Shown: piece after piece, positions 43,914-51,032 of the stretch
Position numbering within the stretch: the stretch's first letter is position 1
Layout: every line of letters starts with the position of its first letter
Assembly: GCA_012960305.1 (NCBI GenBank)
Contig: DUBM01000011.1
Span: 62,001 to 126,000 of the forward strand
Source of the DNA: Gammaproteobacteria bacterium
GTDB taxonomy: Bacteria; Pseudomonadota; Gammaproteobacteria; Pseudomonadales; Pseudohongiellaceae
Direction: 5' to 3'
Length of the DNA stretch: 64,000 nucleotides
Notes under the pieces: model-generated
Told to the model about the DNA's origin: nothing
Database searches by the model: none
What the model saw: only the letters and a program-made list of their open reading frames with translations
Position numbers and translations under genes: made by a program

Positions 43914-46880
43914 ATGAATTATGAACTAACAACCATAATTGGCTTAGGCAGTTGCTATCTGCTGTTGTTATTTGGAATCGCCTATATTACTGAACGAGGG
44001 TGGATTCCTGAGAAGATCGTTCGCCACCCCATAGTCTATGTTCTTTCTTTAGGTGTCTTCGCCAGTGTTTGGGCATACTACACTTCAGTTGGGAACGCAC
44101 TCAGAGATGGTTATGGCTACCTAGCTCAGTCAATTGGAATCTCACTCGCATTTATCTTCTCTCCCCTTTTACTTCGACCTCTTCTAGAGCTAACAAGAAC
44201 ATATCAACTAAGCTCTCTCGCCGATCTCATGGCTTTTCGGTATCGCTCACCTTGGGCAGGAACGCTTTCCACGATCGTGATATTGGTCGGTGTTACACCC
44301 TTAATTTCGTTACAAATACGAGCTGTTGCGGATACTGCAGATATTTTGTCTCCTGCTGCACCGCAGGGTTCAATTGCATTCGGCTTTTGCGTAATCATCA
44401 CCCTGTTCTCCATTCTATTCGGCACTTCTCGTCGCGCAGGTCGTACCCGCCACGATGGATTGGTTATGGCTATAGCTTTTGAGTCTCTGGTAAAATTAAT
44501 TGCCTTCCTTGCCGTAGGTATCTTCGCGATAGTTGGTGGTTTTGGTGGCATGGAGGGTATGACTGAATGGCTTAATGAACGGCCAGAGTTGGTAAACAGT
44601 CTTAAAGGAACTGACTATTTCAGCACTTTTCATATTATGACACTGCTATTTTTTACCGCATCTGTGGCGATGCCCCATATGTTCTATGCAACTTTTAATG
44701 GGAATAGCGGACTCAAAGCACTTTCATTCGCGAGCTGGGGATTACCCCTGTATTTTTTACTCATCAGCTTACCAATTCTTCCAATTCTCTGGGCCGGCTT
44801 GAAATCTGGTAGTGCTGTGCAAGTTGAATATTTGCCTGTGGTAATAGGGGTATCCTACGACGCTCCCTTCTTTACAATTCTCGCTTATCTAGGTGGGCTC
44901 TCGGCCGCCAGTGGTCTAATTATTGTAATTACACTCGCTCTATCGAACATGTGTTTAAATCATCTTATTCTACCTGTCACTCAACCCCCAGCAAATAGCG
45001 ACATCTATCGTTGGTTGTTATGGAAGCGGAGAGTTCTTATAACAGCTCTCATTTGGGCCGGATTTCTATTCCACTACTTACCAGAAGATCGCGTTAGCAT
45101 TCAAATCATTGGAACGTTGGCATTTACAGCATGCCTGCAGTTCTTGCCTGGCATGCTGGCGATTCTTTATTGGCCACAGGGGAATAGAAAAGGATTCATG
45201 GTTGGGTTGGCCACAGGCATATTCATTTGGTTTCTGTTCCTTATGCTGCCTCCATTCTTGGATTCTGGGCCGCTCTCTTTGGTATCGACAAACTGGCGAG
45301 AAATTGCAGCAATCTCACTTATTATGAATAGCATTGTCTTCGCCGCGGTTTCAGTACTAAGTGAAAGCACTGATGAAGAACGCAGCTCCGCTGACATCTG
45401 CGCACTCGACACTATTAAAAGAAGAAAACGCAGTGGCTTAGTTGCCAAATCACCAGATGAATTTATTAAAAGTCTTAGCAAGCCTCTCGGAATGAAAACA
45501 GCCACTCGAGAAGTAATGCAGGCCATCAATGATCTAGATATTACAATTGAAGACTGTCGCCCTAACTCTCTTCGCTTATTACGAGGACGCTTGGAAGCCA
45601 ACCTTTCTGGATTGCTAGGCCCAAGCATAGCGAGGGAGATTATTGACAGATATCTTCCCTACAGCATAATTTCCCAGAATGGCAGCTCTGATCTTAGTGT
45701 TATCGACAACCGAATGGAATCTTATCGCAGCAATCTCTCCGGCATGGCTGCGGATCTGGACAATTTACGGCGCTATCATCGCCAAATCTTACTTGACCTA
45801 CCCTTGGGGGTTTGCTCGTTAAATTATGAAAACGAAGTGATTATTTGGAATCATGCACTGGAAGAGTTTACCGGGATTCAGAGTGCCGACATTGCAAGTT
45901 CTCAATTAAGCGACTTGCCTCAACCTTGGCGTACTTTGCTGACAAACTTCATTGAAGAAGATGCGAATCATTCTTACAAACATACCTTCCAATTAGGAAG
46001 TAGCAAGAAGTTCGTTAATTTGCATAAAGCATTGATTGAAAAATCTGGCGAACAAGGCTCCATGCACGAAGGCACAATTATCCTCATCGAAGACATAACT
46101 GAAACTGAGTTATTAGAAGCGGGGTTAACCCATAGTGAGCGCTTAGCTTCAATCGGCAGGCTTGCTGCTGGCGTAGCTCATGAAATAGGCAACCCAATAA
46201 CTGGAATCGCTTGTTTAGCTCAGACCATAAGAGATGAATTTGAAGCGGATGAATTAAGCGGTCTCGCCGAACAGATTATTGAACAAACTGATAGAACATC
46301 AAGAATTTTACAATCCTTAGTTAATTTTGCTCACGCTGGAACAAATAAAACTCACTATGAGAATGAAATAGTCTCCATATTTGATTGCATGGAAGAAGTA
46401 AAAACTCTCATCTCATTGGATGCGAAAAGCAAAAATTTGAATTTCACTTTGGAATGTGAGCCAAAGGCAAAAATCTTGGGAGACTCGCAACGGCTACTTC
46501 AGGTTATGGTTAACCTCATCAACAATGCCAGAGACGCCTCACAACCAAATAGCAATATTTCCCTACTTGCCACAATAGAAAGAGAGCAAGTGAAGATTGT
46601 AATAATCGATGAGGGAATAGGCATAGCACCAGCTATTCGAGATAGAATTTTCGACCCTTTTTTCACTACTAAAGAAGCTGGAGAAGGCACGGGGCTTGGG
46701 TTGTCGCTAGTCTTCAGCATAATTGAGGATTTAGGCGGTGATATTGATATAATTAGCCCTGTAAATAAAGATAGAGGCACGGGGACGAAGGTATTACTTA
46801 GGTTTCCTTGTTATGATGGCCTCATACAAACAGCTCAAGCTGGCAGTGAGTTGAATAACGAGCCAATGGATATTAACTAA
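43914..46880 (+). CDS. cbrA: Sensor histidine kinase CbrA with an SSS-transporter-like sensor domain
   Basis: 988 aa. Residues 1 to about 500 form an SLC5/SSS-type membrane domain of about 13 helices. A linker (about 510-620) precedes a PAS domain (about 635-740, 'LPLGVCSLNYENEVIIWNHALEEFTGI'), then the HisKA domain with the phosphorylated His756 in 'GVAHEIGNPITGIA', and the HATPase domain with N box 'NLINNARDAS', G1 'DEGIGIAP', F box 'DPFFTTK' and G2 'GTGLGLSL'. CbrA controls carbon/nitrogen balance and use of amino acids and other carbon sources through CbrB. It is followed by cbrB after 30 nt. Confidence 0.95.
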   Translation: MNYELTTIIGLGSCYLLLLFGIAYITERGWIPEKIVRHPIVYVLSLGVFASVWAYYTSVGNALRDGYGYLAQSIGISLAFIFSPLLLRPLLELTRTYQLSSLADLMAFRYRSPWAGTLSTIVILVGVTPLISLQIRAVADTADILSPAAPQGSIAFGFCVIITLFSILFGTSRRAGRTRHDGLVMAIAFESLVKLIAFLAVGIFAIVGGFGGMEGMTEWLNERPELVNSLKGTDYFSTFHIMTLLFFTASVAMPHMFYATFNGNSGLKALSFASWGLPLYFLLISLPILPILWAGLKSGSAVQVEYLPVVIGVSYDAPFFTILAYLGGLSAASGLIIVITLALSNMCLNHLILPVTQPPANSDIYRWLLWKRRVLITALIWAGFLFHYLPEDRVSIQIIGTLAFTACLQFLPGMLAILYWPQGNRKGFMVGLATGIFIWFLFLMLPPFLDSGPLSLVSTNWREIAAISLIMNSIVFAAVSVLSESTDEERSSADICALDTIKRRKRSGLVAKSPDEFIKSLSKPLGMKTATREVMQAINDLDITIEDCRPNSLRLLRGRLEANLSGLLGPSIAREIIDRYLPYSIISQNGSSDLSVIDNRMESYRSNLSGMAADLDNLRRYHRQILLDLPLGVCSLNYENEVIIWNHALEEFTGIQSADIASSQLSDLPQPWRTLLTNFIEEDANHSYKHTFQLGSSKKFVNLHKALIEKSGEQGSMHEGTIILIEDITETELLEAGLTHSERLASIGRLAAGVAHEIGNPITGIACLAQTIRDEFEADELSGLAEQIIEQTDRTSRILQSLVNFAHAGTNKTHYENEIVSIFDCMEEVKTLISLDAKSKNLNFTLECEPKAKILGDSQRLLQVMVNLINNARDASQPNSNISLLATIEREQVKIVIIDEGIGIAPAIRDRIFDPFFTTKEAGEGTGLGLSLVFSIIEDLGGDIDIISPVNKDRGTGTKVLLRFPCYDGLIQTAQAGSELNNEPMDIN

Positions 46881-46910: not shown

Positions 46911-48296
46911 ATGACTGCATTAAATCAAGTCTTAGTAGTAGAAGACGAAGTAGTAATTCGTTCAGCATTGAAGCGCTTACTCGAACGGCACGAGTATGAA
47001 GTGAGTGAAGCTAGTACCGTTAAAGAATCCATCGAAAATTTTGATATGGATGATTTTGACGTGATCATTAGCGATTTGCGCTTACCCGGGGCTCCAGGAA
47101 CCGACTTAATTAAAGCAACAAGCACGCCTGTCTTAATCATGACCAGCTATTCCAGTATCCGCTCCGCTATCGATTCAATGAAAATGGGAGCCGTTGACTA
47201 CATCGCAAAACCTTTCGAACATAGCGAGCTGATAGAATCAGTTGCTAAGATCATACGCGACCATCCTGCCAGCCGATTAAAGAAAGATTCATTAAAAGAG
47301 GAAAATTCAGAACCTCCGATTCATGGCATGATAGGCAACTGTCCGCGGATGCTAGAGCTGTTTCGCCGTATCCGCAAAGTAGCGCTTACAAATTCCACTG
47401 TATTAATAACCGGCGAATCTGGAACAGGTAAAGAGTTAGTTGCTCGAGCGATACACAACTTGAGCTGCGATCAGGGCCGTGAAATGATTTCCGTAAATTG
47501 TGCTGCAATCCCCGAAAATTTGATTGAGCCTGAACTATTTGGGCACGAAAAAGGAGCTTTTATCGGAGCTACCGCTACACGCACTGGACTTGTAGAAGCG
47601 GCAAACGAAAGCACTTTGTTTTTAGATGAAATCGGCGAATTACCGTTAGAGGCGCAAGCTCGCCTCTTACGAGTACTCCAAGAAAGTGAAATTCGTAAAG
47701 TTGGTTCAGTCCAATCTCAAAAAGTGGATGTCCGTTTGGTGGTAGCTACTCACCGTGATTTGAAGCAACTAGTGATTGATGGGAACTTTAGAGAAGATTT
47801 ATATTACCGAATCAATGTAATGACCTTGCTCATTCCCCCTCTGCGAGATAGAGGCAATGACATCCTCGATTTGGCCGAAACAATCTTACTCAGAACCTGC
47901 AGTCGATTGAAATCTCCAGTTTTGAGTTTCAGTAATACTGCCCGACGAGCGATATTAAATTACGCCTGGCCTGGAAATGTTCGTGAGCTGGAAAATGCTA
48001 TAGAGCGCGCCGTAGTGCTCACTGAAACAAGCACTATCGGTGAAGAACTATTAGCCATTGATGATGAATTTCGAACGGACGATACTGCGTTAGTAAGTGC
48101 GGCAGCCAACTCTATTCAAGCAGAACCAATTGAAGAACTTTCTCTAGAAGACTACTTCCAACGCTTTGTGATTGAGCACCAAGATTCGATGAATGAAACA
48201 CAATTGGCAAAGAAATTGGGTATTAGTCGAAAATGCCTCTGGGAACGTCGTCAAAGATTCGGCATACCACGACCCCGGAAGAAAAAAGCAGGCTAA
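46911..48296 (+). CDS. cbrB: Sigma-54-dependent response regulator CbrB
   Basis: 461 aa. A receiver domain (1 to about 115) with phosphorylated Asp55 ('VIISDLRLPG'), a AAA+ domain (about 140-365) with Walker A 'GESGTGKELVARAIHN' and Walker B 'TLFLDEIGELP', and a C-terminal Fis-type HTH ('LAKKLGISRKCLWERRQRFG'). The loop that touches sigma-54, normally GAFTGA, reads GAFIGA here: codon ATC at 47562-47564 gives Ile218, one base from a Thr codon. The adjacent 717-bp gap holds a sigma-54 promoter and CrcZ-like RNA, the expected main target. Confidence 0.94.
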   Translation: MTALNQVLVVEDEVVIRSALKRLLERHEYEVSEASTVKESIENFDMDDFDVIISDLRLPGAPGTDLIKATSTPVLIMTSYSSIRSAIDSMKMGAVDYIAKPFEHSELIESVAKIIRDHPASRLKKDSLKEENSEPPIHGMIGNCPRMLELFRRIRKVALTNSTVLITGESGTGKELVARAIHNLSCDQGREMISVNCAAIPENLIEPELFGHEKGAFIGATATRTGLVEAANESTLFLDEIGELPLEAQARLLRVLQESEIRKVGSVQSQKVDVRLVVATHRDLKQLVIDGNFREDLYYRINVMTLLIPPLRDRGNDILDLAETILLRTCSRLKSPVLSFSNTARRAILNYAWPGNVRELENAIERAVVLTETSTIGEELLAIDDEFRTDDTALVSAAANSIQAEPIEELSLEDYFQRFVIEHQDSMNETQLAKKLGISRKCLWERRQRFGIPRPRKKKAG

Positions 48297-48411
48297 TTAA
48301 CTCTAATTCCGCACCCAACCCGCTACCTGGAAGGCCCGAAAATGGATTTTCCACTGTAAAATCACCACCTTCTTTTCTCAGCCCTATTCGGGTTAATTTT
48401 TGGGTCTGATT

Positions 48412-48456
48412 TGTTACCGCTACTTTTCTACCCAAATATTGGAGCAGAATGTAACA
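48412..48456 (+). promoter_or_regulatory. Candidate CbrB upstream activating site
   Basis: Inverted repeat TGTTAC (48412-48417) ... GTAACA (48451-48456), 33 nt between half-sites, centred about 100 bp upstream of the predicted start of the CrcZ-like RNA. As I recall, TGTTAC/GTAACA half-sites are the reported CbrB elements at Pseudomonas crcZ; the spacing here should be compared. Confidence 0.6.
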
Positions 48457-48510
48457 AAAACCCCCGATAAATAATTGAGAACTACTATCTTAAAAATTAA
48501 CTAATTGATT

Positions 48511-48526
48511 TGGCACAGTAAATGCC
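48511..48526 (+). promoter_or_regulatory. Sigma-54 promoter of the CrcZ-like RNA
   Basis: TGGCACAGTAAATGCC: GG at 48512-48513 and GC at 48524-48525 with exactly 10 nt between. The -24 element TGGCAC is a full match to consensus; the -12 element is ATGC instead of TTGC. The predicted start is at about 48537. Confidence 0.82.
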
Positions 48527-48536
48527 CCATAGTAAG

Positions 48537-48812
48537 GACTAATAACAATAAATAATAATAATAAACCTTAATAAAAACAAAAATAGCATTACTGAGTTAT
48601 ACAACTAAGGTTAGTGCGTTAAATAATAATAAGGTCGGGATTGTGGGCACAAAATAGCAATTTGCTATTTTGTCTCGGATATACCACCTATTGCTTATGC
48701 GGCGCCACTTTTGGCACCGAATAAAAACAATAATAAAAACAATTTAATAGTAATAATAACAAAAACTATTAACTTCCAAATGGAGGGTGGTCTTCACCCT
48801 CCAAAGTATTTC
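48537..48812 (+). ncRNA. crcZ: CrcZ-like regulatory RNA (candidate Hfq/Crc antagonist)
   Basis: Predicted transcript of about 275 nt from the sigma-54 promoter, without a plausible ORF. It carries five A-rich AAN-repeat blocks: 48541-48565, 48570-48585, 48621-48632, 48720-48743 and 48751-48766. Such (AAN)n tracts are the Hfq distal-face ligands by which Pseudomonas CrcZ removes Hfq/Crc from target mRNAs. Between blocks 3 and 4 is an 11-bp hairpin with a 3-nt loop (48649-48673). The transcript ends in a 9-bp stem (48781-48803). The location between cbrB and pcnB is that of crcZ. The 3' end and the RNA itself are predictions. Confidence 0.72.
48781..48812 (+). terminator. Terminal hairpin of the CrcZ-like RNA
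   Basis: TGGAGGGTG (48781-48789), loop GTCTT, CACCCTCCA (48795-48803), a perfect 9-bp GC-rich stem. The tail is only weakly T-rich (AAGTATTTCT), so termination might be partial. The next 200 bp to pcnB hold no recognisable gene. Confidence 0.6.
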
Positions 48813-49013
48813 TCCTGCTACACTACTCTCTACTCACTCGGCTTTCTTTTCGGACTTTAATTTTCGATACAACGGTGTATTATGCCGTTCCATCTCTCTG
48901 TTCAAGTGGTTGCTTCGCTTAATTCTTTCTAATAGTACTTGGAATTCGCACTCACACTAGGATTCACACCTTTTGGAAATTCACACACTAGCAATAACTA
49001 GAAAAACTTTACG

Positions 49014-50345
49014 ATGATTCATCGCGCCTCACCTCCTGGCATGGAAAAAGCAATCGTGACAGAACGCGATCAGCATCCAATATCTCGTAAACAGATTTCT
49101 GAAAATGCTCTCAAGGTCTTGTACAAATTGGGTAGTGCTGGCTATTGCGCCTATTTGGTAGGCGGTAGCGTTCGAGATTTGCTACTAGGTAAAACGCCGA
49201 AAGATTTCGATGTAGCAACCAATGCCACACCGGAAGAACTCAAACAAATTTTCCGCAATGCCAGAATCATCGGCAGGCGATTCAAAATCGTCCACATCCG
49301 CTTTGGCCGAGAAATTATTGAAGTTACTACTTTCCGAGCACCCCATGAAGCCGACAATGAAATCGCTGATGACGTATCACGACGGCAAATTAAGGGTCTT
49401 GATTCTGCCCATTCAACCTCTGGCATGATCTTAAGAGACAATGTCTATGGAAGCATAGATGAGGATGCACTGCGTCGCGATTTCACTATAAACGCTCTTT
49501 ACTACACTACTGAGAATTTTCGCATATTAGATTTTTCTACTGGTCTAAAAGACATGGAAACTCGCCAAATTCGTATGATTGGCGACCCTCGAGAAAGGTA
49601 TAAAGAAGATCCGGTAAGGATGCTGAGGGCTGTTCGGTTCTCAGCAAAACTTGATTTTGATATCGAGGAGTCTACGAAGCAGCCAATAAAAGAATTGGCC
49701 CACTTATTAGGTTCCATTTCTTCTGCTCGGTTATTTGATGAAACTCTAAAATTGTTAACAGGCGGTCATGCTCAAGCAACCTTCGCGTTAATACGCGAAC
49801 ATGATATAGGTGATTATTTATTTGCTCCCACTATGGAAGCTTTGGACAGCGACGAAAGCCCGGCATGCAATTTAGTCGACTTAGCATTGAGAAATACTGA
49901 CATTCGGATTTCTGAAGGAAAATCAGTAACCCCAGCATTTTTATTCGCCGCGCTACTCTGGCCGGTTTTGACCCAAAGACTTCGGTCGGAGTCATATGAG
50001 AAAAAGTTTGATTTCCAAATTTACCAACGCTGTGCAAATGCTGTGCTGATAGAACAATTAGACTACACCGCAGTACCCAAGCGATTTACTATCGCGGCAC
50101 GGGAAATATGGGAACTTCAGCTGCGCCTCGAACGCAGAGCAAAGCACTTTTTGGGAAATGCTCTAAATAATCCTCGCTTTCGAGCTGGCTATGATTTTTT
50201 ATTGCTTAGAGAAGAGTCCGGCGAAGATTTAAAGGGCGTGGGTCAATGGTGGACGGACTTTCAAATCGGTGATACAAAGCAGAGAACAGAACTCATTGCC
50301 AGAGTAGCAAGTCCTATAAACCGCCGAAAGCGACGGAAAAAATAA
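49014..50345 (+). CDS. pcnB: Poly(A) polymerase I
   Basis: 443 aa. Class II nucleotidyltransferase signature 'LVGGSVRDLLLGKTPKDFDVATNATPEEL' near residue 44 with the catalytic DxD, 'RIIGRRFKIVHIRFG', 'RRDFTINALYY' and 'EDPVRMLRAVRFSAKL' near 197. The basic C-terminus ('NRRKRRKK') is typical of bacterial poly(A) polymerases rather than CCA-adding enzymes. It tags RNAs for degradation. In relatives folK follows directly; here a deoxynucleoside kinase follows after 18 nt. Confidence 0.95.
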   Translation: MIHRASPPGMEKAIVTERDQHPISRKQISENALKVLYKLGSAGYCAYLVGGSVRDLLLGKTPKDFDVATNATPEELKQIFRNARIIGRRFKIVHIRFGREIIEVTTFRAPHEADNEIADDVSRRQIKGLDSAHSTSGMILRDNVYGSIDEDALRRDFTINALYYTTENFRILDFSTGLKDMETRQIRMIGDPRERYKEDPVRMLRAVRFSAKLDFDIEESTKQPIKELAHLLGSISSARLFDETLKLLTGGHAQATFALIREHDIGDYLFAPTMEALDSDESPACNLVDLALRNTDIRISEGKSVTPAFLFAALLWPVLTQRLRSESYEKKFDFQIYQRCANAVLIEQLDYTAVPKRFTIAAREIWELQLRLERRAKHFLGNALNNPRFRAGYDFLLLREESGEDLKGVGQWWTDFQIGDTKQRTELIARVASPINRRKRRKK

Positions 50346-50363: not shown

Positions 50364-51032
50364 TTGACGCAGCAAACGAAATTCACTAGGAAATTGCCCA
50401 GCTTCATCGCTGTTGAAGGACCAATTGGTGTAGGAAAAACTAGCCTAACCAAAAGACTCGCAGATACTTTTAACTATGAAATTCTTTTGGAAAAAAGTGA
50501 TGACAATCCATTTCTCGATCGCTTTTACAAGAATCCTAAACAACATGCTCTTTCCACTCAATTATTTTTCCTCTTTCAGCGCACTGCACAAATCCAGAAA
50601 TTACGTCAAGAAGATATGTTTGAGCCAGCCCGAATAGCTGATTTTTTGATTGATAAAGATCAACTGTTCGCACAACAAAATCTTGACCCTGATGAATATG
50701 AACTTTACTTAAACGTCTACGAACATTTGACACTAGAAGCACCTGTTCCAGACCTAGTAATTTATCTACAAGCGCCAACAAACGTATTGCTGGAGAGAAT
50801 ACAAAAAAGAGCAATTAATGCAGAGCAGCTAATTGAGCTTGGCTATTTAGAAAATTTAAATGATGCTTATACTGAGTTCTTTCACTACTACAACAGAACA
50901 TCTTTACTTATCGTTAATAGCGCGGAGATTGATTTAGTATCGAATGATAACGATTATAATCAGTTGGTAGAATATATTCAGACTCTGCCCAACGGAACCC
51001 ACTACTTCAACCCTAAAGCATCACTGATTTAG
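50364..51032 (+). CDS. Deoxynucleoside kinase (dNK family)
   Basis: 222 aa from a TTG start. P-loop 'IAVEGPIGVGKTSLTKRLA' near residue 15, then 'FLDRFYKNPKQHALSTQLFFLFQR' and 'DFLIDKDQLFAQQNLDPDEYELY' typical of deoxyadenosine/deoxyguanosine kinases, and the lid region 'RIQKRAI'. It phosphorylates deoxynucleosides for salvage; specificity is unknown. It occupies the place between pcnB and panB where folK usually precedes it; no folK sequence is left in the 18-nt gap. Confidence 0.9.
   Translation: MTQQTKFTRKLPSFIAVEGPIGVGKTSLTKRLADTFNYEILLEKSDDNPFLDRFYKNPKQHALSTQLFFLFQRTAQIQKLRQEDMFEPARIADFLIDKDQLFAQQNLDPDEYELYLNVYEHLTLEAPVPDLVIYLQAPTNVLLERIQKRAINAEQLIELGYLENLNDAYTEFFHYYNRTSLLIVNSAEIDLVSNDNDYNQLVEYIQTLPNGTHYFNPKASLI

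Follow-up and report, generated by a model that had tools for sequence, protein, structure and literature searches.

The gap between cbrB and pcnB in the window, as the whole analysed stretch of 64,000 nucleotides is called here, very probably harbours the gene for a small RNA of CrcZ type, about 267 nt long: a CbrB- and sigma-54-driven decoy for Hfq that would act without Crc. We put the probability of this reading at about 0.85. Judged by its sequence and setting, the RNA is a positional orthologue of crcZ that is shorter, is not seen by Rfam and lacks the canonical R1 half-site. The basis is synteny, promoter anatomy, the triplet phase of A-rich blocks 2 to 4, covariation in the stems, the conserved distal face of Hfq and searches that detected no Crc-clade protein. 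From the sequence we infer transcription, the binding of CbrB and Hfq, titration, the relief of repression and targets.

Gene neighbourhood and promoter

The window belongs to the genome, 3.1 Mb in 23 contigs, of a marine Pseudohongiella-like bacterium. The gap has the length of 717 bp given in the preliminary description and extends exactly from the stop of cbrB to the start of pcnB (48297-49013), with the predicted RNA and both genes on the same strand. Upstream are gluQ, cbrA and cbrB, downstream pcnB, a nucleoside-kinase-like gene, panB and panC. The order gluQ-cbrA-cbrB-gap-pcnB-panB-panC is common to the window and Pseudomonas, as seen in six Pseudomonadaceae loci (gluQ was not found in one of them, L023). 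The gene cbrA (43914-46880, + strand) encodes a sensor kinase with the Pfam domains HisKA and HATPase_c and a long N-terminal part without Pfam match; its product is 47-49% identical to that of the gene adjoining cbrB in the six loci. CbrB (46911-48296, +), according to Pfam a sigma-54-dependent response regulator, shares 61-64% identity with CbrB of the same syntenic loci, and the poly(A) polymerase gene pcnB (49014-50345, +) scores above the cut-off of TIGR01942. The nucleoside-kinase-like gene (50364-51032) lies between pcnB and panB, occupies the same place in five of five family loci tested and has no match among the six Pseudomonadaceae loci. A sigma-54 gene is present within the window itself. 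The gap had been described as free of ORFs, which holds in substance: the longest closed ORF has 57 aa and starts with GTG (48787-48960), the longest one from ATG has 26 aa.

The closest genus-named relative at the locus is an uncultured Pseudohongiella (CbrB 80%), a genus placed by the NCBI taxonomy in the Pseudohongiellaceae, Pseudomonadales. The term family denotes here 37 genomes with one genus label (G000-G036) and the named loci L002-L018, presumably Pseudohongiellaceae. CbrB searches yielded 34 distinct open-gap family loci besides the window; left out of this number were eight duplicates, the window's own copy (L082), five closed-gap genomes and the loci L018, L108 and L111, in which the contig ends inside cbrB.

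A sigma-54 promoter had been proposed for the gap and was located as the -24/-12 element TGGCACAGTAAATGC at 48511-48525 (+), which is kept in most rows of alignment A1 and predicts a transcription start at about 48537. Upstream are elements absent from the preliminary description. In P. putida, CbrB recognizes TGTTAC (F1) and GTAACA (R1, R2) at intervals of 20-25 bp, with help from IHF at crcZ (PMC6296734, available text). Putative CbrB half-sites in the window are F1 (TGTTAC, 48412-48417, +), with the subsite sequence from that paper, and R2 (GTAACA, 48451-48456, +), found by sequence match. Between them, at the place of R1 (GTAACA) in Pseudomonas, stands TACCCA (48429-48434, +), which is conserved in alignment A1 and may, as we infer, have a role there. 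An IHF-like site on the - strand (48498-48510) abuts the -24 box and has no mismatch to the consensus used for scanning, which we take to be that of IHF.

Spacing was measured from the -24 box in the 31 family loci with a scored sigma-54 box, the window and L016 included, and in 63 Pseudomonadaceae loci. F1 was located 115-125 nt upstream of the box in 27 of the 31 family and 61 of the 63 Pseudomonadaceae loci, at 99 nt in the window, and R2 76-84 nt upstream in 29/31 and 62/63. A canonical R1 at 97-105 nt occurred in none of the 31 family loci versus 62 of the 63 Pseudomonadaceae. IHF-like sites with at most one mismatch were obtained, in a scan without shuffle control, for 25/31 and 40/63 loci, and exactly 32 nt from the -24 box for 17/31 and 35/63. 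Relative to the other family loci measured, the window is about 20 nt short in the stretch from the IHF-like site to the -24 box. All three elements, F1, R2 and the IHF-like site, are shifted towards the box by this distance, as if by the loss of two helical turns; the helical phase is kept, and the IHF-like site abuts the promoter. This arrangement might weaken the promoter in the window genome.

A-rich blocks and stems of the predicted RNA

The predicted RNA extends on the + strand from 48537, the start given by the promoter, to 48803, the end of a terminal stem. The sequence 48537-48812 folds with -66.5 kcal/mol (z -5.72 against shuffles). AAN blocks were defined as AAN runs of at least 11 nt. 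The gap contains six, all on the + strand: block 1 at 48541-48551, block 2 at 48554-48564, block 3 at 48570-48583, block 4 at 48622-48632, block 5 at 48720-48742 and block 6 at 48752-48765, the last one lying within a loop closed by a weak 8-bp stem; blocks 3 and 4 were identified by the run scan and the alignment. Five blocks had been reported before, the first of which resolves into two runs. The remainder of the 64-kb window has five blocks on the + and three on the - strand. The conservation in close relatives on which the preliminary description had staked its reading is present: a sigma-54 match was scored by script in 30 of the 34 other family loci, of which 29 are credible as that of L016 is misplaced, and 32 of the 34 showed an excess of AAN (p 0.01 or better). 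In five loci (L007, L010, L014, L107 and L016) the -24/-12 box is degraded or missing and the AAN blocks are retained. Degradation of the box following a loss of rpoN is not supported, since rpoN is kept in four of these five genomes; it was not found in that of L016, which is 75% complete.

Alignment A2 comprises 24 distinct RNAs. Conservation in blocks 1-4 is 98.8% for the A positions and 80.1% for the N positions (Mann-Whitney p 5e-7), a contrast due to blocks 2-4; the A's of blocks 1 and 2 are invariant (24/24), and the N's are nearly fixed in block 1 as well (97%), with 82% in block 2. In blocks 5 and 6 a triplet phase is not clear, with A at 57% and 83% of the A positions if gaps are counted; block 5 is A-rich in the relatives, gappy and without triplet phase in the alignment. 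The distal face of Hfq follows an A-R-N logic (PMC6422490, available text), and the conservation of A's over N's in triplets is, as far as an alignment can tell, what this face demands.

Three stems separate or terminate the blocks. Hairpin SL1 (48586-48617, +), not recognized earlier, is nearly invariant in the family. Hairpin SL2 (48649-48673, +) is the 11-bp hairpin already noticed; it has 11-bp arms in the window and a covarying short stem in the relatives. The terminal stem, announced with 9 bp, has 9-10 pairs (48781-48803, +) and is followed by a weak T tail in the window. Paired cells in the stems amount to 92.8%, compared with 38-55% in slid controls, over which a structure derived from the same alignment is favoured, and 87.9% after shuffling. 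Two-sided changes were found in 12 pairs (5.9 +- 1.5 shuffled) and 38 cells (11.6 shuffled), most clearly in the terminal stem with six of eight pairs. Another covariation measure, the number of further pair types, was no higher than in shuffled alignments (30 vs 29.0). By the two-sided changes, the stems covary.

These data bear on three other explanations. A functionless A-rich intergenic stretch, kept by a low G+C content, would agree with the AT-rich blocks and the 44% G+C of the 464 kb examined. However, 2000 dinucleotide shuffles of the gap contained 0.24 blocks on average, three at most and never six, and mere base composition would account neither for triplet-phased conservation nor for two-sided compensations. 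Moreover, in five family genomes the unit is wholly absent, not decayed, and cbrB abuts pcnB. We give this explanation next to no credence. The RNA could also be mainly an Hfq-dependent base-pairing sRNA, with the A-rich blocks only as loading sites and the SL1 region as seed. SL1 is indeed near-invariant on both arms in the family, beyond the need of a spacer hairpin, but A's of the AAN blocks make up most of the invariant columns, L133 has a shortened SL1, and the R1 model, a covariance model covering the 5' domain and SL1, had no match in six Pseudomonadaceae loci; base pairing as the main function is unlikely. Somewhat less probable still is a cis-acting 5' leader of pcnB, through which Hfq would regulate a CbrB/sigma-54-driven pcnB. 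A leader would fit the common strand with pcnB and the terminal stem, which in the window and 17 of the 24 aligned RNAs is not followed by a good T tail. At least six T in the nine bases after the stem in the other 7/24 RNAs, the concentration of two-sided changes in just this stem, and 210 nt of poorly aligned sequence between it and pcnB speak for a separate transcript, and the same arrangement in Pseudomonas gives a separate RNA (PMC4063720, PMC8871633, available text).

For the predicted RNA, the R1 model matched 27 of the 37 family genomes, a presence which is partly by construction because the model was built from many of these sequences. The ten genomes without match comprise the five closed-gap genomes, three for which the CbrB search gave no close match (G007, G015, G034), G005 with a truncated contig and G028 (L133) with a diverged copy of 27.6 bits. 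In the closed-gap genomes (G030, G018, G033, G021 and G022, loci L134-L138 in this order) cbrB is kept and lies 4 to 62 nt from pcnB; a model search detected no CrcZ-like RNA elsewhere in these genomes, and no second copy of the RNA in the window's genome.

Distribution in the Pseudomonadales, Hfq and Crc

Outside the family, the order was sampled with a single genome for each of 20 other families. A sigma-54 match together with an AAN excess followed cbrB in 15 of the 20, and 17 had the AAN excess if this was the sole criterion. One of them, G056 (L130), is evidently a member of the Pseudomonadaceae (CbrB 82% and Crc 85% identical to P. otitidis), so that the counts outside Pseudomonadaceae are 14/19 and 16/19. 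Among the incomplete cases, L112 is cut short by the end of its contig, L119 shows no more than two blocks of 8 nt, L117 and L118 are without a scored sigma-54 box, and L120 and L128 have neither box nor AAN excess. All 63 Pseudomonadaceae loci presented both features. In two loci, L116 and L122, the space from cbrB to pcnB contains two tandem arrays of sigma-54 match and AAN blocks, which may be a pair of adjacent crcZ copies. In two Stutzerimonas loci there is a match to the Rfam sRNA P36 (RF01679) just after cbrB and upstream of crcZ (L019, 6423-6485; L044, 6411-6473).

Outside the order, 185 genomes of the class were searched for CbrB relatives at E 1e-110 with a flank of 1.5 kb. Such relatives were present in 17 genomes outside the order (L236, L237, L239-L253), 16 of them with CbrA, and in G080 within the order. 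In the 1.5-kb flanks none of these 18 loci had an adjoining pcnB, and none exceeded a single 11-nt AAN block, the number seen in L240. A sigma-54 match followed cbrB in 6/18, three of which (L246, L247 and L251) had also CbrB-like half-sites, without an 11-nt block. According to these 18 loci, CbrAB, perhaps with a CbrB-driven promoter behind it, extends past the order, and the A-rich array was seen only inside. The R1 model, under stricter filters, gave no match at E 0.001 in the genomes of 21 other families; within the fetched loci of other families the matches were weak, the best being L126 with E 0.011. Homology beyond the family therefore rests on synteny and anatomy, not on alignment. 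The findings indicate that the putative switch is spread through much of the Pseudomonadales, including marine lineages where it escapes Rfam.

The window's genome has one Exo_endo_phos protein, whose best match among solved structures is an exodeoxyribonuclease that we take to be from Neisseria (304 bits), ahead of Crc, presumably of P. aeruginosa (260-262 bits). From 74 extracted Exo_endo_phos proteins, 51 entered a tree, with Pseudomonas Crc verified against PDB 4jg3. The Crc clade (support 100/99) contains 21 rows, including Pseudomonas Crc and one protein each from 16 of the 21 other families of the relatives set, G056 among the 16. The glutamate of the LQE motif is catalytic and is lost in all 21 proteins of this clade. 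The family's proteins stand outside and keep LQE, DWN and SDH, the active site of an ExoIII-type enzyme being intact. Their neighbours in the tree (support 85/93) are ExoIII-type proteins from G039, G044 and G048, three genomes which possess Crc in addition. G018 has a second, distant protein (L206), with DYN, which is also outside. Searches with the family protein and Pseudomonas Crc as queries revealed a Crc-clade protein in none of the 37 family genomes: 33 had a match and four had none, 31 matches were read, and the other two, in G005 and G010, are fragmentary proteins with 69-75% identity to the family enzyme. The same searches recovered Crc-clade proteins in other families at 36-46% identity. 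Incompleteness is an unlikely reason for the absence of Crc in the family genome G025, a single 6.6-Mb contig. A CrcZ-like locus without detected Crc also occurred in G052 and G057, and no Crc was found in G038 (75% complete), G053 and G054. Longer AAN blocks where Crc is missing were considered and gave no clear pattern, as G057 has the longest blocks and G052 has not.

The window's genome encodes an Hfq that shares 59 of 71 residues with that of P. aeruginosa. Among the residues that we take to represent the distal face, 25, 29-33, 52 and 61 are identical and 27 and 28 differ; this comparison with P. aeruginosa points to an ARN-binding distal face. Near gene starts, set by a simple rule for 334/374 called genes in 464 kb, four genes had a long AAN run versus a shuffle mean of 3.4, no excess, so that Hfq target mRNAs are not visible by a start-codon scan for long AAN runs.

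In the proposed mechanism, phosphorylated CbrB would bind the TGTTAC/GTAACA half-sites and, together with DNA bending, would activate the sigma-54 polymerase at 48511-48525. Each of the six AAN blocks would accommodate one Hfq hexamer by its distal face, and the hairpins between them would leave most blocks single-stranded. On a poor carbon source the activity of CbrB would increase, and the RNA would titrate Hfq off A-rich mRNA leaders and lift the repression. As the family appears to be without Crc, the co-repressor that normally accompanies Hfq, the decoy would act on Hfq alone. We consider it fairly probable that the decoy is widespread in Pseudomonadales and that the Pseudohongiellaceae and probably two further families (those of G052 and G057, one genome each) possess an Hfq-only version without Crc. 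If true, Crc would be a dispensable partner, a degenerate ExoIII relative outside the core switch. What Crc adds would become directly testable in a natural lineage with decoy and Hfq and without Crc, and the five relatives that keep cbrB and lack the RNA at the locus provide the matching control.

Relation to known CrcZ systems

The RNA had been called a crcZ homologue. Synteny, promoter geometry and the A-rich anatomy match this designation; by score it is not a member of the Rfam family. The CrcZ covariance model RF01675 reached 18.2 bits in the window versus a cut-off of 95, and no Rfam model matched the window at its cut-off. None of nine family loci passed the RF01675 cut-off compared with four of four Pseudomonadaceae loci at 191-309 bits. 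CrcZ-type RNAs had also been held to be known only from Pseudomonas. Pseudomonas is correct, but Azotobacter has to be added: a review of 2022 describes, in its available text, the cbrA-cbrB-crcZ arrangement only in Pseudomonas and Azotobacter and the Cbr system as unique to Pseudomonadaceae (PMC8871633). In view of the loci compared here, the published restriction of the synteny to Pseudomonadaceae looks too narrow. A search by titles and the beginnings of abstracts, with subscription journals mostly outside its coverage, found no paper describing CrcZ outside Pseudomonadaceae. Transcripts of cbrAB have been reported from mesopelagic water (PMC5073097, available text), and the available texts of PMC8312277 and PMC5295007 name CrcZ in the reference lists only.

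CrcZ and CrcY of Azotobacter vinelandii are likewise reported as CbrAB-controlled antagonists of Hfq/Crc; Azotobacter, however, is a member of the Pseudomonadaceae, and the account includes Crc (PMC6292655, PMC5429807). The sRNA99 of A. baumannii has three potential AAN motifs and behaves CrcZ-like in Hfq RIL-seq (PMC12802169), but CbrB is mentioned nowhere in the available text of that paper.

The closest counterpart is CrcZ of Pseudomonas (RF01675, with the paralogues CrcY and CrcX). The PAO1 RNA contains six A-rich stretches and binds Hfq with its first 151 nt, a binding in which the Hfq variant Y25D is defective (PMC4063720, available text). The predicted RNA of the window is shorter, with about 267 nt versus 407 nt in Pseudomonas (same source). 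R1 is replaced by TACCCA, the blocks are of AATAAT type whereas the three Pseudomonadaceae gaps compared have the AACAAGAACAA type, and the window's genome presented, in contrast to the Pseudomonas system, no detected Crc and a single RNA copy by model search. Both have in common the position between cbrB and pcnB, the sigma-54 promoter with the half-sites F1 and R2, in the window's relatives also the commonest distance of the IHF-like site, and an RNA with six A-rich blocks, in which an A-rich block is followed by a G/C-rich terminal stem.
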